Source: Muribaculaceae bacterium (lineage in GTDB: Bacteria; Bacteroidota; Bacteroidia; Bacteroidales; Muribaculaceae). From it: DNA of 36,776 nt. Positions 7,923-36,776 of this stretch are shown piece by piece. Both the position numbers and the translations under genes were made by a program. The stretch is from the NCBI GenBank assembly GCA_016281825.1, contig JAEEJI010000032.1:1-36776 (forward strand). The letters are read 5' to 3'. Below the pieces are notes generated by a model that worked only from the letters and a program-made list of their open reading frames with translations, was not told where the DNA came from and did not search any database. Every line of letters begins with the position of its first letter. Within the stretch, counting starts at the first letter, position 1.

Positions 7923-7950
7923 AATGCATAATTCATAATGCATAATTCAT
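7923..7950. repeat. 7-bp tandem repeat array (4 units, AATNCAT)
   Basis: aatgcat aattcat aatgcat aattcat. Confidence 0.9.
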
Positions 7951-8052
7951 AATCATTGCCGAGCTATTTTTTGCACACAGACTATTTTATTTTTCCTGTT
8001 TGAAAAGTTTTTCGTACATTTGCACTTTCGATTGAAAATCGCTTAACTAAAA

Positions 8053-18168: not shown

Positions 18169-18203
18169 AATGCATAATTCATAATGCATAATGCACAATG
18201 CAT
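18169..18203. repeat. 7-bp tandem repeat array (5 units, AATNCAN)
   Basis: aatgcat-aattcat-aatgcat-aatgcac-aatgcat in exact 7-nt register. Confidence 0.9.
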
Positions 18204-18307: not shown

Positions 18308-18377
18308 AACTATTAACTCTTAACTGTAAACTATTAACGCTTAACTATTAACTATCAACTGTAAACTATCAACTATC
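18308..18377. repeat. 7-bp tandem repeat array (10 units, mostly AACTNNN)
   Basis: aactatt aactctt aactgta aactatt aacgctt aactatt aactatc aactgta aactatc aactatc; last base is the first base of the radC stop codon. Confidence 0.92.
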
Positions 18378-19099
18378 TAGAGTGCTCCTTCGTCGTTGTA
18401 GCTGTAGTAGCGTCCTCCTCGGCACACAATGATGTGGTCGATGAGGTGCATGTCCATGGTGTTGCATGCAGCCGCGACTTTCTTGGTCAGTGTGTTGTCT
18501 TGCATGCTCGGACTTGCCGTGTCGCTGGGATGGTTGTGAGCGAGGATGATGGAGTCGGCCAAATGTTCGATGGCGGGTTTCATGACCATTTTGATGTCGG
18601 CCACGGTCATTGTGGTACCTCCTGCGCTGATGCGCTCCACGCCCAGCACTCGCTTGCTGCGGTTGAGCATGACAATCCATATTTCCTCGTGATCAAGCGC
18701 TCCCATCTTTGCCCACAGCAGGTCGTACGCGTCCTTACTGCAGGTGATTTGGTACTCGTCATCAAATCTCTCCAGCTGGTATCGCCGTGCCAGTTCGAGT
18801 GCCGCAAGGATTTCGATGGCCTTCACCTCTCCAATGCCGCGGTACTTTCTGACCAAGTCTTTGATGGAGTTTCGTGCCAGGTTGTAGTATTTCCCGGCAT
18901 GGTCATCGAGTATGCGTTGGCACAGTTCCAGCACATTCTCTCCTTGGCTTCCGCTTCCGATAATGAGTGCTAACAGGTCTCGGTCGTTGCATTGTTTGAA
19001 TCCAAACTGTTTGGCCTTCTCTCGTGGCCTGTCATCCTCGGCGACACACTGTTGCAGCGGTCTTGACCGCCGATATTCAACGTCATAATCCTGTATCAT
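18377..19099 (-). CDS. radC: RadC/JAB-domain DNA repair-like protein
   Basis: LALIIGSGSQGENVLELCQRIL, HhH-like YRGIGEVKAIEILAALELARR, JAMM-like ILAHNHPSDTASPSMQD. Confidence 0.9.
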   Translation of the reverse strand: MIQDYDVEYRRSRPLQQCVAEDDRPREKAKQFGFKQCNDRDLLALIIGSGSQGENVLELCQRILDDHAGKYYNLARNSIKDLVRKYRGIGEVKAIEILAALELARRYQLERFDDEYQITCSKDAYDLLWAKMGALDHEEIWIVMLNRSKRVLGVERISAGGTTMTVADIKMVMKPAIEHLADSIILAHNHPSDTASPSMQDNTLTKKVAAACNTMDMHLIDHIIVCRGGRYYSYNDEGAL

Positions 19100-19105
19100 A
19101 GTAAA

Positions 19106-20104
19106 TCATTTGCCTTTTCGCATGGCGATTTCTTCGTTGATGTCTCGGCCGTGACCCAGCAGGATTTTCCAAACGAATGACTTGATAAACCCATAACCGT
19201 AGCTGCCTAACTGGACAAAACTTGTTACCACCGCCATGAGCGATATTTTCAGACTCTTGGTCTTGACGAGTGCGCTGACCCAGAGCATAACAGCATAGAG
19301 CACCAGAGGCAGTATTGCCCACCAGCGCCAGAAGATGGCGAGCAGGATGAGCGCAAGGCATCCCAGCACGAAGACCGCGGGCAGGGTGTGGACCAGCTTG
19401 AGACTGTCGGGATAGAGCAGCTTCAGCGTGATTCGCGACATGCCGAAGACATAGGTCTGGCGGGCAAATTTTTTGAGACTTGTGCGGCGCTTGTGGTAGA
19501 CGCACGCCTCACGGATGAGCCGGATGTCGAATCCTGCCTGGCGTATGCGAGTGCTCATGTCGATGTCCTCGCTGAACATCTCCCGAAACCCTCCGACCTT
19601 TTCCCAGACCTCGCGCGAATAACCCATGTTGAACGACCGCGGGACAAATTTTTCCAATTGCACCTTTCCACCGCGTATTCCGCCAGTGGTAAGAAACGCC
19701 GTCATCGAGAAGCTAATGGCCTTCTGCAGGTCGGTGAAGTCCTCACCGGCTGCATCGGGACCTCCGAAGCAAGGCACATACTGCTCGCGCAAAGCCGTTT
19801 GCAGTTTGGCAAAGTAGTCAGGCGGGATGACGCAGTCACTGTCAAAGAAGACGAAATAGTCTCCCACGGCGCGTTCGATACCGTGGTTACGGGCAATGCT
19901 GCGTCCTTCGTTATCCTTATAATAATAATGTACGTCGATTTGGTCCTTGTACTTGTCGACGATGTCTCCGCAGGGGTCGGTCGAGCCGTCCTCGACAATC
20001 ATGACTTCAAAATCCTTGACGGTCTGCGCCGCCAGGCTGCGCAACAGGTCGTCGACCTCATCGCGCCGGTTGTACACGGGTACTATGACAGAGAAATAGG
20101 GCAC
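19106..20104 (-). CDS. Glycosyltransferase family 2 with C-terminal transmembrane segments (GTG start)
   Basis: PYFSVIVPVYNRRDEVDDLLRSLAAQTVKDFEVMIVEDGSTD, NHGIERAVGDYFVFFDSDCV; hydrophobic C-terminal helices. Confidence 0.9.
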   Translation of the reverse strand: MPYFSVIVPVYNRRDEVDDLLRSLAAQTVKDFEVMIVEDGSTDPCGDIVDKYKDQIDVHYYYKDNEGRSIARNHGIERAVGDYFVFFDSDCVIPPDYFAKLQTALREQYVPCFGGPDAAGEDFTDLQKAISFSMTAFLTTGGIRGGKVQLEKFVPRSFNMGYSREVWEKVGGFREMFSEDIDMSTRIRQAGFDIRLIREACVYHKRRTSLKKFARQTYVFGMSRITLKLLYPDSLKLVHTLPAVFVLGCLALILLAIFWRWWAILPLVLYAVMLWVSALVKTKSLKISLMAVVTSFVQLGSYGYGFIKSFVWKILLGHGRDINEEIAMRKGK

Positions 20105-20229
20105 GGTAATCTAATGCATAATTCATAATGCACAATGCATAATCAGCGCTGTCGCCAAGCTGATTACATTGTACAGAATGATGTTTTTACAATTATAGAA
20201 TGTTGGTGCAAAGGTACGAAGAAGTTTTG
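20096..20229. repeat. Direct repeat copy R1 (~130 bp), covering the GT2 start, 5'UTR and minus-strand promoter
   Basis: Near-identical to 26037-26170; contains heptads 20113-20140 and minus-strand TACCTTTGC. Confidence 0.85.
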
Positions 20230-20256
20230 AATTGTGTGGGGTGAGAGGAAATTTTT

Positions 20257-20284
20257 AATGGAGAATTGAGAATGGAGAATGGAG
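20257..20284. repeat. 7-bp tandem repeat array (4 units, AATNGAG)
   Basis: aatggag aattgag aatggag aatggag. Confidence 0.88.
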
Positions 20285-20301
20285 ACTTCTCGCCTAATGG
20301 G

Positions 20302-20356
20302 GACGGTTCCGCCATTTGTTAAAGAAAGTGTTAAAAGTGGCGGAAAAAGAACCGTC
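20302..20356. repeat. REP-like long hairpin element (gacggttc...gaaccgtc)
   Basis: Outer perfect 8-bp arms gacggttc (20302-20309) / gaaccgtc (20349-20356); inner cgccat / gtggcg arms. Confidence 0.7.
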
Positions 20357-20409
20357 TCTAATCCGCCACAGCCGCCCCTCTCCTCCGGAAAGGGGTTGGG
20401 GTGAGGCTT

Positions 20410-22740
20410 TTATGCTTTGCCTAGCATGATGTTGATGATGATGTTGACATCTGAGACATCAACATTGTTATCGCCGTTGCAGTCGGCATTGCCGGGATAA
20501 GTGCTTGCTTGTACCTTACCGAGCATGATGTTGATGACAATATTCACATCAGAGACATCGACCGATCCATCACCGTTGACATCGCCGAGGAGTGTATCAC
20601 TTTCACCCTCATAGTCGCTCAATATGCCAGTGGTTGTTAGGCGTTTTGGCCACCATCCTTTGGCTCTTGAGTTTTGCACCTGTTGCGCGGTCATCTTTTG
20701 GTCATCATCGCCCCTCGTGAACAGGTAATAAGTCTTTCTAGTGGGTCGATTGTCCAACGAGGCGATAAATTGGTCGACTGCATCAGTGCTTAGCTTGTTG
20801 GTGTTACAGTAAAGATTGATTGTCGTGCCGTCGGCAAACGACTCGGTGGACACTTTGAGCGAAGTCAACTTGTTGTCGTTACAATGCAATATTGTTAGGG
20901 CTTTATTTGGTGTCAAGTCAAGTTGCTGCAACTGGTTTGAGGTGCAGTATAATTTTTGCAACAAAGTACATTCGGACACATTCAGTGTCGTGAGCTGATT
21001 GGTCGTGCAACTGAGATAGGTCAATTTCTTATTATTACTCAGATCCAAAGATGTAAGGCTATTATCGTTAAGATTCAACGTCTTCAGTTCGGTGAAATAC
21101 TCGATGCCCTGCAGAGAGGTAATATTCTTTGACTGCGCAAACATCGACGTCACGTTCAGCTCTGAGGGTGTGAGATAGCCATTTCCATTTGTATCATAGT
21201 TGCTGACCCATTCTCGGAAGTTATCATCGGGGAAATGAGTCTCATTCACCGGAATTTCACCGTCATAGCTGAGCCATGGATTACCGGCACTTACTGTAGT
21301 ATATTGTACATCCCATTTCTTGGCTCTTGCGGCTTGAGCTTGCGATATCAACAAATGGTTATAATCCGTCTCGTTTGCACCGTTGGCAATGGTAAATCTG
21401 ATTGTGCCGGACGAAGTGCGCTGTGGCAGATTGTTCACAAAACTTTCGGCTCCGTCACCGTCTATGTTGTTAAAGTAGCAAAAAACTGTCTTGAGGGCAG
21501 TGTTCCTACTCAAGTCCAGGGTGGTGAGTTTGTTATTGTTACAATACAAGCTGGTTAAAGCAGTGTTATGCGTTAGGTTCAAGGTGGTGAGTTTGTTGTT
21601 GTTACAATACAATGTGCTTAAAGCGGTGTTATACGTTAGGCTCAGGGTCGATATCTGGTTGTTGTCGCATGCCAGGAAGGTCAAGTTATTATTGTATGTC
21701 AGATTCAGTGAGGTGAGGTTGTTGCCACAGCAATTGAGGTCTGTAAGTTGGGTATTCTTGGTCACATTCAGTGTCGAGAGTGTGTTGCTGCTGCAGTCCA
21801 GGCTGGCCAGTGCCGTGAAATAGGCAATTCCGGTTAGGCTAGAAATAGATTTGTACTTGACATCCATCGATGTAGTGTTAGCGACATCGGTAGCTGTGAT
21901 ATAGCCTTTGGGGAACAACTGAAGCACATAGTTGCGGAAATTGGCATCGGGGAAGTTGGTGGCATTGATGATTGCCACATAGTCGTTGCTGATTAATAGA
22001 TCCTTGTTATAAACGTTAACGCCGTTTAGCACTACCGATTCTGCCGTCTCGCTATATGCGGCTCCTATAGGTTGCAGAATACATTGGTTGTCGAAAAACG
22101 CCATCGCTTCCACATTTTTTACATTGGAATTGCTACTATTGCCGGTGGCTTGAAGGGTCACTTTGCTGTTTCCGGCAAATGCTACGCGCCAAATGTCGAG
22201 CAGGTCTCCACCACCCCCTTTTATCGTGGCATTGATTCCTTCCTGGAAACTCAGGTTGTTGTTGTCGTTGTTTCCTTCTATACCTCCTTTGCTCGTGGCG
22301 GTGATTTTGATAGTGCCATAGCCCTTGAAAGCCACATTGCTGCTATTGGTAATATAGATGCCGCCCTCACTGCCACCGGTAATGTTTGTAGTGCTGCCAG
22401 CCGTGACAATTACTGTGGTGTTTCGCTCGAATCGCACGGGTGCGGCATCGGCAGCCGACAGGTTATTAGTTCCAACCAGCTTCACGGTCAGTCCGGGGTT
22501 GCTCTCATTGTAGATGGCACGATTGTTGCTGCCTGTGCGCGAGATGGTGACATTGGTGAGGGTGACGGTGTTGGTCGCCAAGTCGTATTTCACCGAACCA
22601 CTGATGGTGCTTCCGGTGACGTTGTTGCAATTGTCACTGTTGACTGACACGCCACCGATTTTAAAGCCATAGTAGTCAGAGGCCTGCACTGCCAACATCG
22701 TCATCAGTACAGCCATAAGTATAAGCAATCTTGTTTTCAT
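20410..22740 (-). CDS. Secreted leucine-rich repeat protein with C-terminal type I dockerin-like domain
   Basis: Signal peptide; repeated NTALSTLYCNNNKLTTLNLT LRRs; C-terminal GDVNGDGSVDVSDVNIVINIMLGK...NADCNGDNNVDVSDVNIIINIMLGK (paired EF-hand-like dockerin repeats). Confidence 0.87.
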   Translation of the reverse strand: MKTRLLILMAVLMTMLAVQASDYYGFKIGGVSVNSDNCNNVTGSTISGSVKYDLATNTVTLTNVTISRTGSNNRAIYNESNPGLTVKLVGTNNLSAADAAPVRFERNTTVIVTAGSTTNITGGSEGGIYITNSSNVAFKGYGTIKITATSKGGIEGNNDNNNLSFQEGINATIKGGGGDLLDIWRVAFAGNSKVTLQATGNSSNSNVKNVEAMAFFDNQCILQPIGAAYSETAESVVLNGVNVYNKDLLISNDYVAIINATNFPDANFRNYVLQLFPKGYITATDVANTTSMDVKYKSISSLTGIAYFTALASLDCSSNTLSTLNVTKNTQLTDLNCCGNNLTSLNLTYNNNLTFLACDNNQISTLSLTYNTALSTLYCNNNKLTTLNLTHNTALTSLYCNNNKLTTLDLSRNTALKTVFCYFNNIDGDGAESFVNNLPQRTSSGTIRFTIANGANETDYNHLLISQAQAARAKKWDVQYTTVSAGNPWLSYDGEIPVNETHFPDDNFREWVSNYDTNGNGYLTPSELNVTSMFAQSKNITSLQGIEYFTELKTLNLNDNSLTSLDLSNNKKLTYLSCTTNQLTTLNVSECTLLQKLYCTSNQLQQLDLTPNKALTILHCNDNKLTSLKVSTESFADGTTINLYCNTNKLSTDAVDQFIASLDNRPTRKTYYLFTRGDDDQKMTAQQVQNSRAKGWWPKRLTTTGILSDYEGESDTLLGDVNGDGSVDVSDVNIVINIMLGKVQASTYPGNADCNGDNNVDVSDVNIIINIMLGKA

Positions 22741-22875
22741 TGTCTTTTCTATTTTATTTACAAAGTTTTTTAGAGGTTGTTTTTATCATGCAAAGATACG
22801 AAGAAATGTTGAGATGGGCATCATTTTGGTAGGGTTGAGGCAAAAATGAGAAAACAGGTATATTCAATATTTTCG

Positions 22876-22891
22876 TGTCATGGGAATGACA
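22876..22891. promoter_or_regulatory. Operator-like inverted repeat abutting the AAA ATPase -7 box
   Basis: tgtcat-ggga-atgaca immediately before TACCTTTG (22892-22899). Confidence 0.45.
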
Positions 22892-22943
22892 TACCTTTGC
22901 AGCGTGATTCAAAAAAAACAACACAAACAATAAATCTACAGGC

Positions 22944-24704
22944 ATGAAAAAGAACGAGTTAAGTACCGCCTCCGAGGCAACGAAAACCCCGTCTAAGACC
23001 ATGAAGCCCCGCAAACAAAAAGCCTTGTGGACCATCATCAGTGCACTGAACCGCGTGCTTGAACTTTCATATGAAAGCAAACTCAGCGGCACGTTCTGGG
23101 AATCGTGCAAGGAGCCGCTCGACTACCTGACCGAGAAACTCGACTTAACCGCCATGCAAGTGGTGGCACTCGCCATCCTCATTGAGAATGGGAAACCCAT
23201 GACATGGCGTGACTTCTGCTACCACCTCCGTTGCAGCCGTCTAACATTCATGGTTCACAGTGAGGACCTTGACGATCTCGTCGCCAAACGTTGGGTCACG
23301 CGCAAGAGATTCAGCGATTACGACGAAGAAAGAGAAGAGGAGGGCTTCATGATTGAGCAAGGTGTGGTCACTGCGTTGCGTCACAATCGGGTATTCGTGC
23401 CCGAGAAAATCGACGGGCTGACAACCCGTGAACTCATCGACAGAATGAACCGCTACGTTAAGAAAAATTGCGGGAACATGCGCACATCGCTGAACATGAA
23501 AGACGCCGAGGAGTGGTTCACAATACTGTGCCGCGCCAACTCCAAGTTACCATTGTGCCACGAAGCATTGCGCTTCGCTGATCAGCCCACTGTTCTCTCA
23601 TTGTTCATGTGGGTCGTTCTCAAGTACGACCAATTCGGTGACGATGTCCGCGGAGACATGTCCCTAGACGACATAGAAGACCTCTACCCAGACACTCGTG
23701 AACAAGAGACGCTGCGCAATCAGCTCAGCCATGGCAATCACCCCCTGCAAGAAGCAGGTCTGCTCGAGATGCGTTGCGTGGACGGTGTGGCCGACACCGA
23801 TTCCTACTTACTGACGCGACACTGTAAGGAAGAGGTACTCGCCGACTTCGAACCCAGTCAATCGAGTTGCAAAAAACGCTTCATCATAGAAAGTCCATAC
23901 TTGATCAAGCACACATCATTCGGCGCGAAGACGATGTTCTACAATGCTGACGAGCAAACTCAAATTGATCTGCTAACTCACCTGTTGAGTCAAGAACAGC
24001 TGCCTAAGGTTCAGGAACGGCTAGAACAGCAAGGAATGCGCAAGGGCTTCACTTGCCTATTCTACGGTGCTCCTGGCACAGGAAAGACCGAGACCGTGCA
24101 GCAAATAGCCCTTCAGACACGACGCGACGTGATGCGCGTAGACATCGCCGGAATGCGCGACAAGTGGGTGGGCGAGAGCGAGAAGAACATTCGAAACTTG
24201 TTCCGTCGGTACCGCCTGCTGAGCAAGGGGTGCAAAACAATGCCCATCTTGTTGTTCAACGAGGCCGACGCACTGATTAACAAGCGCCTCGAGAACATCG
24301 AGCACTCGGTAGACAAGATGGACAACGCGATGCAGAACATCATCCTACAAGAACTCGAGGAGCTTGACGGCATTCTCATCGCCACAACCAACCTCACATG
24401 TAACCTCGACAAAGCATTCGAGCGCCGCTTCCTCTACAAGATCGAGTTCCACCAACCCGATGCAACCGTCCAAGCCCGACTGTGGCGTTCGATGCTCGGT
24501 GAGGGATTGAACGAGGATGATGCCCAGGAGCTCGCCCACCGCTTCAACTTCTCGGGCGGCCAGATCGAAAACATCGCGCGCAAGAGCAGCATCCACTACA
24601 TCATGACAGGCCGCACTGCCACGCTTGACGAACTCGATGCCTTCTGCCGTGCCGAGCTGTTCGAGAACAAACCCAGTACCCGCCCGATAGGTTTCCGAGC
24701 TTAA
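22944..24704 (+). CDS. AAA+ family ATPase of unknown function
   Basis: Walker A LFYGAPGTGKTE; Walker B-like PILLFNEADAL; sensor-1-like LIATTN; FERRF arginine-finger-like; unassigned ~370-aa N-terminal region. Confidence 0.88.
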   Translation: MKKNELSTASEATKTPSKTMKPRKQKALWTIISALNRVLELSYESKLSGTFWESCKEPLDYLTEKLDLTAMQVVALAILIENGKPMTWRDFCYHLRCSRLTFMVHSEDLDDLVAKRWVTRKRFSDYDEEREEEGFMIEQGVVTALRHNRVFVPEKIDGLTTRELIDRMNRYVKKNCGNMRTSLNMKDAEEWFTILCRANSKLPLCHEALRFADQPTVLSLFMWVVLKYDQFGDDVRGDMSLDDIEDLYPDTREQETLRNQLSHGNHPLQEAGLLEMRCVDGVADTDSYLLTRHCKEEVLADFEPSQSSCKKRFIIESPYLIKHTSFGAKTMFYNADEQTQIDLLTHLLSQEQLPKVQERLEQQGMRKGFTCLFYGAPGTGKTETVQQIALQTRRDVMRVDIAGMRDKWVGESEKNIRNLFRRYRLLSKGCKTMPILLFNEADALINKRLENIEHSVDKMDNAMQNIILQELEELDGILIATTNLTCNLDKAFERRFLYKIEFHQPDATVQARLWRSMLGEGLNEDDAQELAHRFNFSGGQIENIARKSSIHYIMTGRTATLDELDAFCRAELFENKPSTRPIGFRA

Positions 24705-24773
24705 GACACCACTCGCAACAACATGTTGTGCGCCAACACCTTACGGAATATCGCGTAAAAAACGCACAACCAG

Positions 24774-24803
24774 TTAACCAAAATTAACCAAAAATCTTTG
24801 GTT
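24774..24803. promoter_or_regulatory. Candidate operator: two tandem 10-mers plus an inverted third site
   Basis: ttaaccaaaa-ttaaccaaaa followed by inverted tttggtta; overlaps the -33 TTTG region of the promoter with TACCTTTG at 24821-24828. Confidence 0.55.
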
Positions 24804-24834
24804 ATCTCAACAAAAACACATACCTTTGCATTTA

Positions 24835-25082
24835 GAAACACGAAATATACATTTTTATTTATCCGGCAATACCCATTAAGGGTGCTTTGTATATTTAACT
24901 ATGGTATATTTCGTTCAGATATTAGTTCATTCACATGATGTGACACACATGCATCCAGAGACAGGCTGCTCCGGCAGAAACTGCGCCAACCGAGTGACAT
25001 AAACACAAACGGTGGTCAAAATGATGTGATTAAACAGCCAAACTTGTATTTAATTTGTTTATTGTTTAATAAAAATAAAATT
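24835..25082 (+). promoter_or_regulatory. Long structured 5' leader of the 207-aa orphan gene
   Basis: 11-bp arms acgaaatatac (24840-24850) / gtatatttcgt (24904-24914); competing gtatattt at 24889-24896; hairpins accc-attaa-gggt and ctgc-tccg-gcag. Confidence 0.5.
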
Positions 25083-25703
25083 ATGACACATTATTCTATA
25101 AGTCATTCTAGCCCCCTCAACGGCATGGAGACTCTCGAGGCCTTCATGCCCAGTCATCGTGTTCAATCGACTGACTCCAACCTTGTCAGTCTTAAGGTGG
25201 TTCGTCGCCAGTCCAGCGTCAAGAAACAAGGCCGCCGCCCTATGGCATGGGACATCGTGATTACCGTCAATGGCGTGGCTTACCCACTCACCTTCGGCAA
25301 CAAGGACAATGCCATGGTCTACGCTTGCTCGTTGCTTCGCTATAAGGGCGGCAGCAAGTTCTATCGCGACGAGCTCGAGAGCCATGAGTGCGACCCTTGG
25401 ATCCGAGAGCTGTTCTTCACCATCTTCCCCTCGCGCGACCGCGATTTCGACGAGTGGTATCGAACATTCATCTCCGACAGGCAACGCCTTAGTCAAGCCA
25501 AGAGTCAAGCCTCTGCACAAATCAAGAACGCGATGTGTTCTGCCCCTGAGGACGCAGTAATGCAATGCATATTAGATGCACAAAAAGACAAGTTCAGAAA
25601 AAGCACCTCATACATCATCAACGTGCCACCCGAGCGCATCACACTTCCTGCCGAATGGATGCGAATCATCAACTACGATTCTCGTTCGACCATGCATAAG
25701 TAA
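25083..25703 (+). CDS. Hypothetical protein, no recognised domain
   Basis: ORF with ATG at 25083 (MTHYSISHSSPLNGMETLEAF...); the 25026 start in the track lies in the AT-rich leader. Confidence 0.65.
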   Translation: MTHYSISHSSPLNGMETLEAFMPSHRVQSTDSNLVSLKVVRRQSSVKKQGRRPMAWDIVITVNGVAYPLTFGNKDNAMVYACSLLRYKGGSKFYRDELESHECDPWIRELFFTIFPSRDRDFDEWYRTFISDRQRLSQAKSQASAQIKNAMCSAPEDAVMQCILDAQKDKFRKSTSYIINVPPERITLPAEWMRIINYDSRSTMHK

Positions 25704-25755
25704 AATCACTTGATATCATGAAAATGAACACACTTCTCCAAACAAATTTTTAGCT

Positions 25756-26055
25756 ATGCACATCAGTTTCAAACTTTTAGAACAACGATTTGCCGTGAAT
25801 GGATGGCGGCAATACCATTTGTTCCATCGAGGCACGAAATGGACAAAGGACGGACAGGAGGTCATCATGACTGTCAAGGGGTTCACGTTGAATGGCACAC
25901 CGGTAGATGGCGACGTCATCGCAGAAATGCTACACATCAGTGAGCGAGACATCAACTTAGACCAAGAACTAGCCCGTCGCCACTACACTGCGCCTTGCCG
26001 CCAAGCCTTCATTGAAGGAGTCCATTGGGCAGAAAAACAGGGCACGGTTATCTAA
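25756..26055 (+). CDS. Hypothetical small protein (99 aa)
   Basis: Intact ORF MHISFKLLEQRFAVNGWRQYHLFHRGTKW...; its last codons and stop lie inside repeat copy R2. Confidence 0.5.
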   Translation: MHISFKLLEQRFAVNGWRQYHLFHRGTKWTKDGQEVIMTVKGFTLNGTPVDGDVIAEMLHISERDINLDQELARRHYTAPCRQAFIEGVHWAEKQGTVI

Positions 26056-26170
26056 TGCATAATTCATAATGCACAATGCATAATCAGGTTTTCGCCGAGC
26101 TGAGCGCATTGTACAAAATGATGTTTTTACAATTATAGAATATTGGTGCATAGGTACGAAGAAATGTTGA
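26037..26170. repeat. Direct repeat copy R2 (~130 bp)
   Basis: agggcacggttatctaatgcataattcataatgcacaatgcataatcag...aatgatgtttttacaattatagaatattggtgcataggtacgaagaa, aligns to R1 with roughly 15-20 differences by eye. Confidence 0.85.
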
Positions 26171-26189
26171 TAAGTCGAAAAAAAAGCAT

Positions 26190-26197
26190 TAACTTTG
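26190..26197 (+). promoter_or_regulatory. -7 box (TAACTTTG) for orphan-sbcD-sbcC operon
   Basis: TAnnTTTG match 17 nt upstream of ATG 26215. Confidence 0.55.
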
Positions 26198-26214
26198 CCG
26201 AAAAAAGTAATTCT

Positions 26215-27000
26215 ATGAACGACAACAAGACACCAACTCATGAACCAGAACTCACGGTAGAATCCGTTTTTGACCTCTCGTCAATACCCGAGAGAGATTT
26301 GTTTGCTAACTGTATCGAATACAGAGATAAAGTTTATACTTTTAGTATCGTCCCCTACATATCTATAGATGGGAATTATGAGAACAAAATTGACATTGTT
26401 CTGACTCCTCAAGATGTTGCAGCTATTAGAGACTGGTTTTATCTCCGCGACAAGAAGTGGATTAGTTTTGTCCCTCTAGAATTTAGAACGCACAGTCCTA
26501 AAGTCTATGACAAGCTCTATCGCGCCCTTATCGATTGGATTAACACTAGTGACCTCGATGAAGATTTTTGCGACGAAGAAGTCATCTCAGATTTAGAATA
26601 CGATCCTTCACTCAATCCATTAAACAAAGATTGCCCATGGCCTGTTTTGCACTGGCCTGACCAACTCTTTAAAGAGATGGACATTAATATCCCCAATGTT
26701 TCTATATGGGTCAATGACAAGAAAACAAGCCCCTCAGACTCTGGGCTCGGCTACCCAATCTATCTAGAAGACCATTTCATGGATGAACTACAACATATTC
26801 TAACAGATTTGTTTAGCAAACAACCTACTATTGATTTTTTTAATATTGAAGAACTTGCAGAAAAACATCACAATTTGAGAGATGTCATCAAACAAAGAGT
26901 GAAAGATATGCTAATTAGCAACTTCGATTACGATGAATCTAAAATAACAGAACTTACATTTTCACTTTATCAATTCTCAATTCATCATACAGTTTTATAG
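26215..27000 (+). CDS. Hypothetical acidic protein (about 260 aa) upstream of sbcD
   Basis: Intact ORF MNDNKTPTHEPELTVESVFDLSSIPERDLF...; 10-nt gap to sbcD start; visibly AT-rich codon usage. Track start 26143 precedes the promoter and is unlikely. Confidence 0.7.
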   Translation: MNDNKTPTHEPELTVESVFDLSSIPERDLFANCIEYRDKVYTFSIVPYISIDGNYENKIDIVLTPQDVAAIRDWFYLRDKKWISFVPLEFRTHSPKVYDKLYRALIDWINTSDLDEDFCDEEVISDLEYDPSLNPLNKDCPWPVLHWPDQLFKEMDINIPNVSIWVNDKKTSPSDSGLGYPIYLEDHFMDELQHILTDLFSKQPTIDFFNIEELAEKHHNLRDVIKQRVKDMLISNFDYDESKITELTFSLYQFSIHHTVL

Positions 27001-27010
27001 CTCTTGCATC

Positions 27011-28282
27011 ATGAAGATTATCACAACTAGTGACTGGCATTTGGGGAACTTGTTTCATGGCAACGACCGGCTGGAGGAGCATGAGGACTTTTTAGAATGG
27101 TTGCTCGGTCAGCTAAAGGAACAACAGCCCGACGCGCTACTTGTAGCAGGCGACGTGTTTGATAACGGCAACCCGTCGGCAAAAGCTCAGTCGGCCTACT
27201 ACAAGTTTCTCGCTGAAGCGACACAGTCCTGCGCCACCCTGCAGATTGTCATCACCGCCGGTAACCACGACTCGGCGAGTCGCCTGGAGGCTCCTCGAGA
27301 ATTGTTGACGCATCATCGCGTAGAGGTTCGCGGCACAATCAAGCGCCAATGGGTCACCGATGATGACGGCCAAGGCGACTGGCAGGTTGACTATGACGAC
27401 CTGCTTATCCCCGTTGACGGCCAAGCGGGCGACCGTGCCATCGTGCTCGCTGTTCCCTATCTGCGCAGCGACGTGGTTCGCGACACGAGCTACTCACGAG
27501 GCGTGAACCAGTTCTTGCACTCACTCACCGCCCGTGCCCGCGAACTATATCCCGACACTCCCCTGGTGATGATGGCTCACATGTATGCCAGCGGTGCCGA
27601 CATCGCCTCGCGTGATGCCAGTGAGCGCATCATCATCGGCGGACAGGAGCAAGTAAGCATGGAAGGCTGGAACGAACATCCCGATTACCTGACCTGCGGC
27701 CACATCCACAAGCGCCAGCACATTTGGGACACCGACTGGGCGCGCTATACGGGCAGCGTGTTGCCCATGTCGTTCGTCGAGAAGGACTATACGCATGGCG
27801 TGGATCTGGTGACACTCACTGCCGGTCATCGCCCCATGGTGAAACAACTCGAGTACACGCCCCAGCACCGACTGCGGGTGCTGCCCGAGGATGGTGCCGA
27901 CCTCACTGTCAATCAATTGACTAAGCTCATTAACAACGAGTTGCAAGAGCGTACCAGCGACAAGCCTGATGACCACTTCGACTATGTATGGCTCAAGGTT
28001 CGGCGCAATCGCGTAAACCATGACGATGCCAAGATGCTGATGGACCTGGTGAACAGCAAAAATGCCGTCCTATGCAAAACCGAGAGCATCATCGAAATAG
28101 TGAACCCATCAGCCAGCGTCGGCGAACGCACGTTAACCAGCGTTGATGACATCCTGAACCGCGACCCGCTGGAAACTTTGCAGGAGGCTTTTGTGGCCAA
28201 ACACAACGCCGAGATGAATGAGCGGCAGAAGTCGCTCCTTACCGATGTCATCAACAGTATTAAGAACAAATCTAACGACTAA
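27011..28282 (+). CDS. sbcD: Exonuclease subunit SbcD
   Basis: Metallophosphoesterase motifs TSDWHLGN, LLVAGDVFDNGNPS, TAGNHDSASRL, HMYASGAD, CGHIHKRQ. Confidence 0.94.
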   Translation: MKIITTSDWHLGNLFHGNDRLEEHEDFLEWLLGQLKEQQPDALLVAGDVFDNGNPSAKAQSAYYKFLAEATQSCATLQIVITAGNHDSASRLEAPRELLTHHRVEVRGTIKRQWVTDDDGQGDWQVDYDDLLIPVDGQAGDRAIVLAVPYLRSDVVRDTSYSRGVNQFLHSLTARARELYPDTPLVMMAHMYASGADIASRDASERIIIGGQEQVSMEGWNEHPDYLTCGHIHKRQHIWDTDWARYTGSVLPMSFVEKDYTHGVDLVTLTAGHRPMVKQLEYTPQHRLRVLPEDGADLTVNQLTKLINNELQERTSDKPDDHFDYVWLKVRRNRVNHDDAKMLMDLVNSKNAVLCKTESIIEIVNPSASVGERTLTSVDDILNRDPLETLQEAFVAKHNAEMNERQKSLLTDVINSIKNKSND

Positions 28283-28287
28283 ATATC

Positions 28288-31200
28288 ATGAAACTCATCC
28301 GACTTGAAATTCTCAATCTCGCCTCACTCGACAGACCCGAAGGCGAAGTAATCGACTTTACCCAAGGTGCCCTGGGCGAGAGCAACATCTTTAGCATCGT
28401 AGGGCCAACGGGCAGCGGCAAATCGACTCTGCTTGACGCCATCTGTCTGGCATTGTACAACCGCGCGCCACGCTACCCACGCGTGGCACGCCAACACAAC
28501 AATATCGAGATTTACGGTACACCCGATGAGAGTGAGCTCAACCGTCTTGCTCCGACTGACTGCCGCAACATCCTTACGCGTGGCAAGAATAATGGCTACA
28601 GCAAGCTTACCTTCCTGGCCAACAACGGTACTATCTACCGCGCTGAGTGGCACGTCAGGTTTAACCGCACGAGATATGCCAACACCGTCAAACTGCTGTA
28701 CAAACTCAGCACGTCATCGGATGGCACGCCCATTGAGGAAGAAGCCGACTGGAACGAACTTCCGCAAATCATCGGGTTGGACTACGAACAGTTCCTGCGC
28801 ACGGTGCTGATTGCCCAGGGCTCGTTTGCCAACTTTCTCACCGCCAAGGAGGATGAGCGTTTTGCGTTGCTCGAGAAGCTGATTGGCTGCGAGGATTTAT
28901 ACACAAACATTGCTCAAGCCATTAAGGAACGCTTCAAAGCAGCCGAGACGACTTACAACCAAGTGAGTGCCTCGGTGGATGCCGTCAAGCAGAATATGCT
29001 AGATGACAACGCCCTTCAAGCCTTGAAAGACGAAATCAAAGAACTTGATGAAGCCGAGAAAGCACTATCCGAAACCCTCAAGCAGGTGGATAAAGAATTG
29101 CAGTGGTTTGTCGATGACGAGAAAAAGTCGCGAGCTATCATCGACTGCCAAGCCGAGGAAACAAAGGCCAAGGACGCGTTGGCCGCCAAAGCCTCGGACT
29201 TTGCGCGCCTGTCGCTTCACGATGCCATTGACCCCGCGGTGGACTTGTTGCGCGAGGTGAAACGCCTAGAGAATGAGATCAAGAAGCTGAATGATGAAAT
29301 CGCCGACACTGGTCGTGATATTATCGGTCAAGAAAAACGCATCCAGGCCGCCACCCGGCACCTCAATGAATTGAAAGATACAGCAGAGAAAGCACTAGCC
29401 CTAGCTGAAGAGGAACTCCGCAAGATGAAAACGGCTTTTGAAAAAGAGAGGAAAGATCATCAAGCTCACGTCCTCGACATCACGACACGACTTCAAAGCG
29501 AGCAACAAAAAATCCAAGGTCAAGATGCCGACGCTCTGCAACAAGCCAAGACGCGAGCCGACCATGCCCTGCGCGACTTGCAAGATGCCATCACTATAGT
29601 GGACAACTTGGGCAAAGCCGTCAAGGAGAAACAGGACAAGGAAAAAACACTAGCCCAGCTGCAAGAACAGAACAAGCGACTGCAAGAAGAATTGTGCAAA
29701 CTTGACATCGAGTCGCTGAATAAAGAAGTCGATACGTTGCGGCGCATCTACACTCTGACGACCAGCGAGCAGTGGTCGCAACACCGCGACCTGCTTCGCG
29801 AGGGGAGTCCGTGTCCGTTGTGCGGTGCGACCCAACATCCGTATCTTGAAGACTCGACGCAAGCCCAGATGGTTGGAACAGAGCTCCATGAGTTACTGAC
29901 CACCAAAGAGAATGAGTTGAAAAACCGGCAAAAGCGCCAATCGGATTTTTCGGGTGCCATTAAAACCAACGAGGGCACGATTGTTGAGCTGGACAAGCGA
30001 TTGCAACAATTGAGCGAGAACATGAACGAACTAGAAGGGAAATGGGATGCTATGCGCCAGCAGTATCCCTTGCTGCCGCATGAGTTGGAGTCGCTCAAAG
30101 CACTGGTACCCAGCCATGAGCAGACTAAACAGCAGGCCGATGACACCCTCGCGCGATACAATAAGGTGAAACAGTGCATTGATGACTGGGTTAAGCAAAA
30201 AGAGGAAGCCACTGATGTGTTGACAAACTTTGAAAAAAAGGCCTCTGAAGACATCTCAATATTTAAGGATGGGCTTAACTCATACAAGACCGTCCTTGCC
30301 GAACTGCGTGCCCTTACCCCTACCCTATCGCAGCAGTACGATGACAGTCAAAAAACGGCGGAGGAAACCACCTCGTCTTGCCAGATTACAAGCCAGGAGT
30401 TGGAGAAACTGCAAAAAACGTTCAAGAGAGAACTCGATGAGAGTCAAGCTGAATTAAGCAAGTTACAAGGCATCCAGCAGAAGCAGTCGCAACTGATGGA
30501 AGACCACAAACGCGAAATGGAAGCCAAAAATGGCGAGCTGAACAAGTGGTTGGATGAGTACAACGCCCGTGCAGACAAACTCAAGGAGATCACAATCGAT
30601 GATGTGAGCGACATGCTAGCGGCTACTGATAACTGGGAGACCATCCGCTCAACCAAGGAGCGCCTCATCAAAGCCATTCACTCAACTGGCGCGCTTCTTG
30701 ATCAGGCACGAAAAGAACATGAGTCTCACCAGACCAGCAAGCCCGAACTGCCAAAAGAAGCACTCGTTGCTCACCAACAAGAACTACAGCAGAGCAGCCA
30801 GCATGACAAGTTGATTGAGCTCAACACCCGCTTGAAGAGTCACAATGATGCAATCGTGCAGTTGGGCGACAAGGCCAAGGAGCTGGAGGATGCCACTCGC
30901 GACAAGCAGGACTGGGGTCAAATAAACGACTCTATTGGTGGTGACGGCAAGCTTTTACGCAAGATTGCGCAGTGCTATACCTTGGGCTTCCTGATTGAAC
31001 ACGCCAATGAGGAGATTCGCAAGTTCAACAGCCGTTATGAGCTGCAGCAAGTGAAAAACTCGTTGGGCATCCGGGTCATTGACCACGACCGCGCCGACGA
31101 TGTCCGCGACACGACATCGTTGTCGGGTGGCGAGACGTTCATCGTCAGTCTGGGCCTCGCTCTGGGCCTGTCGTCATTGTCGTCGCGCAACATCTCGTTT

Positions 31201-31410
31201 GACAACCTGTTTATCGACGAGGGTTTCGGCACGCTCGACCCCGACACGCTCGCCACAGTGATTGACTCGTTGGCGATGCTGCAGATGTCGCAAGGCAAAA
31301 AGGTGGGTGTGATCAGCCACACCGACACGATGAGCGAACGCATCACCACGCAAATCCGTGTGGTGAAGAATGGCTCGTCGGGCAGCAGCCACATCGAGAT
31401 TTACCCATGA
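28288..31410 (+). CDS. sbcC: Exonuclease subunit SbcC
   Basis: IVGPTGSGKSTLLDAICLALY; coiled coils; zinc hook CPLCG; SLSGGETFIVSLGLALGLSSL and NLFIDEGFGTLDPDTL. Confidence 0.95.
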   Translation: MKLIRLEILNLASLDRPEGEVIDFTQGALGESNIFSIVGPTGSGKSTLLDAICLALYNRAPRYPRVARQHNNIEIYGTPDESELNRLAPTDCRNILTRGKNNGYSKLTFLANNGTIYRAEWHVRFNRTRYANTVKLLYKLSTSSDGTPIEEEADWNELPQIIGLDYEQFLRTVLIAQGSFANFLTAKEDERFALLEKLIGCEDLYTNIAQAIKERFKAAETTYNQVSASVDAVKQNMLDDNALQALKDEIKELDEAEKALSETLKQVDKELQWFVDDEKKSRAIIDCQAEETKAKDALAAKASDFARLSLHDAIDPAVDLLREVKRLENEIKKLNDEIADTGRDIIGQEKRIQAATRHLNELKDTAEKALALAEEELRKMKTAFEKERKDHQAHVLDITTRLQSEQQKIQGQDADALQQAKTRADHALRDLQDAITIVDNLGKAVKEKQDKEKTLAQLQEQNKRLQEELCKLDIESLNKEVDTLRRIYTLTTSEQWSQHRDLLREGSPCPLCGATQHPYLEDSTQAQMVGTELHELLTTKENELKNRQKRQSDFSGAIKTNEGTIVELDKRLQQLSENMNELEGKWDAMRQQYPLLPHELESLKALVPSHEQTKQQADDTLARYNKVKQCIDDWVKQKEEATDVLTNFEKKASEDISIFKDGLNSYKTVLAELRALTPTLSQQYDDSQKTAEETTSSCQITSQELEKLQKTFKRELDESQAELSKLQGIQQKQSQLMEDHKREMEAKNGELNKWLDEYNARADKLKEITIDDVSDMLAATDNWETIRSTKERLIKAIHSTGALLDQARKEHESHQTSKPELPKEALVAHQQELQQSSQHDKLIELNTRLKSHNDAIVQLGDKAKELEDATRDKQDWGQINDSIGGDGKLLRKIAQCYTLGFLIEHANEEIRKFNSRYELQQVKNSLGIRVIDHDRADDVRDTTSLSGGETFIVSLGLALGLSSLSSRNISFDNLFIDEGFGTLDPDTLATVIDSLAMLQMSQGKKVGVISHTDTMSERITTQIRVVKNGSSGSSHIEIYP

Positions 31411-36524: not shown

Positions 36525-36776
36525 TTAAAGTAAATCAAAGAAGAAGATGACGGCAGCAAACTTTCGGTCGATGCCTTTTGCCGAGCCGACATTGCGGTTG
36601 CTGCTGTCGCGCACGGTGCCGTCGCTCTCAATCTTTCCGACGTAGCTGTTGCTGCTGTTGCGCACAGTTCCGTCACTGTAAATCTTGCCCATGTAAGAAT
36701 TGCTGCGGTTGCGGATGGTACCGTCACTCTCAATCTTTCCAACATAGCTGTTGCTGCTGTTGCGGATGGTGCCGTC
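36525..36776 (-). CDS. 5-fold beta-flower-like repeat protein (C-terminal part; N-terminus beyond window)
   Basis: Reverse-strand frame gives DGTIRNSSNSYVGKIES DGTIRNRSNSYMGKIYS DGTVRNSSNSYVGKIES DGTVRDSSNRNVGSAKG IDRKFAAVIFFFDLL*. The ORF listed at 36518..36745 is a wrong frame. Confidence 0.75.
   Translation of the reverse strand, partial: DGTIRNSSNSYVGKIESDGTIRNRSNSYMGKIYSDGTVRNSSNSYVGKIESDGTVRDSSNRNVGSAKGIDRKFAAVIFFFDLL

Follow-up and report, generated by a model that had tools for sequence, protein, structure and literature searches.

In the window, by which we mean the whole 36,776-bp stretch of DNA from a rumen member of the Muribaculaceae analysed here, two direct repeats, R1 and R2, flank a block of foreign genes. 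The overall explanation that fits best, to which we assign a probability of roughly 60%, is that the divergent promoter region of the glycosyltransferase gene GT2 and sbcD was duplicated around these genes through homology-facilitated illegitimate recombination. An insertion or hybrid scar of some kind is quite likely, and the specific mechanism, homology-facilitated illegitimate recombination between two forms of the locus, is put forward tentatively, at slightly less than even odds. The observations behind this explanation are the repeat itself, the block-free relatives, the split of the promoters, the low divergence of the two copies and their absence elsewhere. On this basis, R1 and R2 would best be read as a scar left by recombination at an accessory locus of variable content, rather than as a new type of mobile element.

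The host assembly comprises 2.83 Mb in 281 contigs and is 83% complete. The named genomes closest to it are for the most part bins from rumen metagenomes that carry the label Muribaculaceae or Bacteroidales, and Candidatus Sodaliphilus is present among its genus mates. The gene order in the window is DnaB, RadC, GT2 (leftward), LRR-dockerin (leftward), AAA ATPase, o225, o99, o285, sbcD, sbcC and fabG (Table 1). No known structured RNA was found in 19000-28000. Tandem repeats with a 51-bp period were seen at 36598-36776, within an ORF at the contig end.

Repeats and divided promoters

Direct repeats of about 130 bp bracketing the block had been reported in the first-pass annotation; they are real, and extend slightly farther to the left than it had placed them. 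The alignment of R1 with R2 spans 142 columns, of which 14 are mismatched and one holds a 1-base gap (89% identical), and its local alignment score was 207, as compared with 17-23 for shuffled flanks. Uninterrupted identity reaches 38 bp in one tract and 25 bp in the next longest. The whole repeat matched just two places in the 2.83-Mb host assembly, R1 and R2. The 44 other host matches were limited to the AT-rich core (query positions about 20-65), which belongs to a dispersed low-complexity family, and the whole repeat did not occur at dozens of unrelated host loci, dispersal being confined to this core. In 100 genus mates the repeat was absent, and its promoter half matched only 23 bp adjoining GT2 in genus mate G013. 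R1 and R2 were also considered as the ends of a mobile element, and this candidate was rejected on the grounds that the whole repeat occurs only twice in the genome, that there is no recombinase domain and that the block is single-copy. An AT-rich motif like AATGCATAATTCATAATGCA is found at window positions 7923-7955, 18169-18199, 20109-20146 and 26050-26087, with dozens of copies across the genome.

Table 1. Features of the repeats, the block and the flanking genes (window coordinates)
Feature	Position	Strand	Description
GT2 glycosyltransferase	19106..20104	-	Conserved locus anchor
R1	20089..20230	-	Start of GT2 gene (16 nt) with its leader and -7 promoter element; repeat ends on the right within promoter spacer
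38-bp identical R1/R2 tract	20109..20146		AT-rich core of genome-wide low-complexity family
GT2 -7 element TACCTTTG in R1	20209..20216	-	Intact; fits consensus TAnnTTTG
Block between repeats	20231..26029		About 5.8 kb, single copy in host genome
LRR-dockerin protein, 776 aa	20410..22740	-	Co-directional with GT2
AAA ATPase, 586 aa	22944..24704	+	Four closest genus relatives at GT2 and/or sbcCD locus
Orphan o225, 206 aa from ATG	25083..25703	+	No Pfam match; sole relative adjoins AAA gene in G003
Orphan o99, 99 aa	25756..26055	+	No Pfam match; stop codon is R2 sequence
R2	26030..26170		Putative left part of native GT2/sbcD intergenic region; right end and flank orthologous to G013 and G009
GT2-start relic GTGCCCTGTTTTTCTG in R2	26030..26045	-	16 nt, then similarity to GT2 drops sharply
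Leftward -7 element TACCTATG in R2	26149..26156	-	Decayed; counterpart intact in R1, G013 and G009
Rightward -7 element TAACTTTG of o285-sbcD-sbcC operon	26190..26197	+	Intact; identical element in G013 and G009
o285	26215..27000	+	Heads sbcCD operon in window
sbcD and sbcC	27011..31410	+	In o285-sbcD-sbcC operon

As judged from sequence, the repeat unit corresponds to the GT2/sbcD divergent promoter region together with the opening 16 nt of GT2; the first-pass annotation saw the repeats, but missed both their promoter nature and the GT2 relic in R2. The content of R1 follows from the start of GT2 at 20104 on the minus strand. The similarity ends sharply at 26030, and a second sharp edge lies at 20230.

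The promoters were assigned using the consensus TTTG/TAnnTTTG (PMC7366714). In G013 and a second genus mate, G009, one intergenic region holds both promoters, a leftward TTTG-N20-TAnCTTTG for GT2 and a rightward TAACTTTG for sbcD. In the host this pair is divided, R1 having only the leftward -7 element and the R2 side only the rightward element. No -33 TTTG for GT2 was found in R1 at 19-21 nt from the -7 element, because the R1 homology stops within the promoter spacer. The decay of the leftward -7 element in R2 is a single substitution, which is weak evidence when taken alone; the promoter pattern as a whole is consistent with such a division. A shared divergent promoter would have been duplicated with each copy keeping one half, so that both old neighbours would keep at least part of their own promoter. 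GT2, now without a -33 element, may be transcribed by read-through from the co-directional LRR gene, and the sbcCD operon probably retains its own promoter. The GT2 leader in R1 (20105-20212) contains a strong predicted hairpin (z -3.1), and the R2 version is weaker (z -2.0).

An assembly chimera of two strains in a metagenome-assembled genome was weighed as another source of the structure: the assembly is fragmented and incomplete, its named relatives are metagenome bins, and R1 and R2 share identical tracts. At 38 bp, however, the longest of these tracts would be a short one for assembly to join on in its final step, and no long shared tract includes the key join at 26030, so that some molecule carries this join. 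These results make a chimera very improbable.

Block-free relatives and age of the duplication

In G009, GT2 and sbcD diverge across 142 bp with no block between them. In G013, which is also block-free, GT2 is followed by 152 bp and then by a 5' remnant of sbcD next to fabG. A GT2-to-sbcD junction with one repeat copy, for which the first-pass annotation had suggested looking, is thus present in both, and it supports the reading, offered there, of the repeats as the scar of a duplication or insertion. At the corresponding site o285 is missing in G009 and G013. In G013 (L091:1-722), sbcC and most of sbcD are deleted, and about 24-40 sbcD codons are left between GT2 and fabG.

The right end of R2 and its flank (26148-26210) matched the G013 intergenic region at 87.5% over 64 bp and that of G009 over 29 bp at 93%. 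Among 80 GT2-upstream regions, the R2 flank scored clearly above null only for G013 and G009, and every score of the R1 right flank against all 80 was within null. Because the R2 side has the intact sbcD promoter and the GT2 relic, whereas all that R1 retains of the promoter pair is the -7 element of GT2, the native junction is taken to be R2 with its right flank, the block sitting between the repeats.

Of 141 positions compared between R1 and R2, 14 differ (about 10%), whereas the differences at 4-fold sites between the window and G013 are 0.53-0.56 (DnaB, GT2); against the sister genome G027 they are 0.16 (sbcCD). As the divergence of the copies is far below species-level 4-fold divergence (>0.5), the duplication appears to be recent, postdating the split from G013 and corresponding to about strain or sister-species divergence, provided that the similarity of R1 and R2 is not maintained by gene conversion or selection. 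A duplicated GT2 start was found in none of the 80 GT2 loci examined elsewhere. The block-free forms in G009 and G013 are therefore unlikely to be products of the R1/R2 pair, the duplication being much younger than the species splits. No block-bearing strain with a single R, and no donor, was found; the G027 contig ends inside sbcD.

These data bear on an alternative in which the block was present ancestrally together with its two repeats, and was lost from G009 and G013 by recombination between R1 and R2. The AAA genes at the same place in genus mates G021, G007 and G072 would accord with an ancestral block, but the divergence of R1 and R2 is far below species divergence, although gene conversion could lower it, the AAA gene is not vertical (see below), and two R copies occur in no other genome. 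To this alternative we give hardly any weight. Deletion of the block by an R1 x R2 crossover, a possibility raised in the first-pass annotation, is conceivable in principle in view of the 38-bp identical tract; no sign of deletion was seen.

In the concatenated tree, the window groups with G013 (support 100), and G009 is next with weak support. The tree of RadC (18377-19099) differs from that of DnaB and GT2, placing the window with G009 and G021 and not with G013, which suggests recombination beside the GT2 locus.

Block contents and gene exchange at the locus

A domain scan bore out the first-pass description of a block that carries an LRR-dockerin gene, an AAA ATPase and two orphans with no transposase or integrase; no such domain was found in the scanned block ORFs. 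The second orphan, o99, is present as described, but does not lie wholly between the repeats, since it ends inside R2; no usable homologues were found from which to judge whether its C-terminus is native. As for further copies of the block, only dockerin, AAA-paralogue and AT-repeat fragments were matched in the host, whose assembly is incomplete.

The LRR-dockerin protein has a 51% relative (1192 aa) elsewhere in G009. Relocation of the LRR gene from a G009-like position was considered and rejected, this relative offering no clear source.

For the AAA ATPase, the clade of the window protein, which has full support against other sampled paralogues, comprises genus members located at the GT2 locus (G021, G007 and G072) or adjoining sbcD (G003). 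The window protein is 48-51% identical to this clade, whereas those of G021, G007 and G072 are 86-90% identical among themselves, and the GT2 of the window is 92-94% identical to the GT2 of these same three genomes. These results indicate that the AAA gene was not inherited together with GT2, and vertical inheritance at this locus, suggested by position, was rejected. Eight loci examined from other genera showed no AAA gene of this type next to sbcD. A phage or plasmid origin was also rejected: no relatives of o225, o285 or the AAA ATPase were found in viral contigs and none of o225 in phages, and the AAA ATPase matched plasmids only at <60% identity. Upstream of o225 (24797-25082), a consensus promoter, TTTG-N20-TACCTTTG, is followed by a leader, about 245 nt in length, that contains a long hairpin (folding z-score -1.8, no Rfam match).

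The sbcC gene is likewise divergent between genomes. The non-vertical AAA gene, the o225 relative beside the G003 AAA gene and the divergent sbcC together argue that the locus exchanges genes. In G021, the interval from the AAA gene to sbcD holds a retron-type reverse transcriptase (RVT_1; L089:7498-8559, minus), which PADLOC matched best to retron types XI and XII and which may have an ncRNA upstream of it; G007 lacks the reverse transcriptase but has retained a similar upstream sequence. In G072 (L221:1347-5068), an endonuclease I gene directly follows the AAA gene, and a gene of the same kind follows sbcC in G021, G007 and G009. Because of this direct adjacency, sbcCD is cleanly absent in G072.

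On a broader reading, which we regard as distinctly unlikely, the GT2/sbcCD locus would serve the genus as a recombinase-free exchange site: homologous flanks would allow alleles of the AAA ATPase, the retron and SbcCD, which possibly form one anti-phage module, to be swapped, and the duplicated promoter would permit precise, reversible loss of the block. Very improbable is an excisable cassette without a recombinase, in which the block would circularise and reintegrate by RecA-dependent crossover between the R copies. Direct repeats with 38 bp of identity would allow this crossover, and both block-bearing and block-free states exist in the genus; yet the R pair is unique among 80 loci, the block is found nowhere else in the host, relatives of its proteins were not found in viral contigs or phages, and the block-free relatives are older than the duplication.

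Proposed mechanism and comparison with known systems

In homology-facilitated illegitimate recombination, the locus would have started with a single divergent promoter region between GT2 and sbcD. Two forms of it, block-bearing and block-free, would have crossed over by homology on the DnaB-RadC-GT2 side or, in a mirror version, on the sbcCD side, with an illegitimate join at 26030 on the opposite side. The LRR-dockerin gene, the AAA ATPase and the two orphans would thereby have been joined between GT2 and the promoter region. GT2 would have retained one copy of its own start and -7 element, as R1, and the native region with the 16-nt GT2 relic would have stayed ahead of the sbcCD operon, as R2; R1 and R2 would then be the corresponding regions of two strains or sister species. 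We infer the direction, the donor and the illegitimate step: either a block-free strain took up the block, or a block-bearing strain received an R2-sbcCD segment. Such a hybrid of two locus forms would account for the GT2 relic, the two versions of R and the recurring AAA type.

The right edge of R1 falls within the GT2 promoter spacer, and so is probably a junction as well, one that needs a second event or another mechanism. Template switching, or repair of a staggered break with a long target duplication, would run from GT2 into R, jump to the block at 20230 and return to GT2 codon 6, so that 142 bp would be present in two copies. It explains the two sharp edges, at 20230 and 26030, better than the hybrid model does, and fits the cut spacer and the lack of a recombinase in the block. 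It does not account, however, for the placement of the AAA gene in the clade that relatives have at this same locus, and requires that copies identical at the start have since accrued about 10% divergence. We consider it unlikely.

Whichever form the event took, its sequence illustrates cleanly a way in which a chromosome may acquire accessory genes with neither a transposase nor an integrase. It also points to a fast-changing locus with an AAA ATPase, a retron-like reverse transcriptase and SbcCD, which may be a defence site. The C-terminal domain of the AAA ATPase matches IetA profiles of the IetAS anti-phage system; the score, 96.9 bits, is far below the NCBIfam cut-off of 510 bits, the match being confined to the C-terminal part, and no IetS-like protease was matched in the block or among its neighbours.

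As with insertion-sequence target-site duplications, direct repeats surround foreign DNA. However, 142 bp far exceeds the usual length of such duplications, and the host block lacks a transposase domain.

Homology-facilitated illegitimate recombination is known both in transformation and in conjugation, with examples from S. pneumoniae, A. baylyi and P. stutzeri, and from E. coli conjugation (PMC3240628). The host locus resembles these examples in that one conserved flank would anchor, an illegitimate join would form opposite and non-homologous genes are added, whereas it differs in being read from sequence alone and in that the promoter region was left duplicated. The same mechanism has been proposed for the T6SS cassettes of V. 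cholerae (PMC5361080). As in the displacement of those effector-immunity cassettes, cargo lies beside a conserved anchor and relics of the old arrangement remain; in contrast to them, the host cargo consists of LRR-dockerin, AAA ATPase and orphan genes, and the relic is a promoter with 16 nt of a glycosyltransferase gene.
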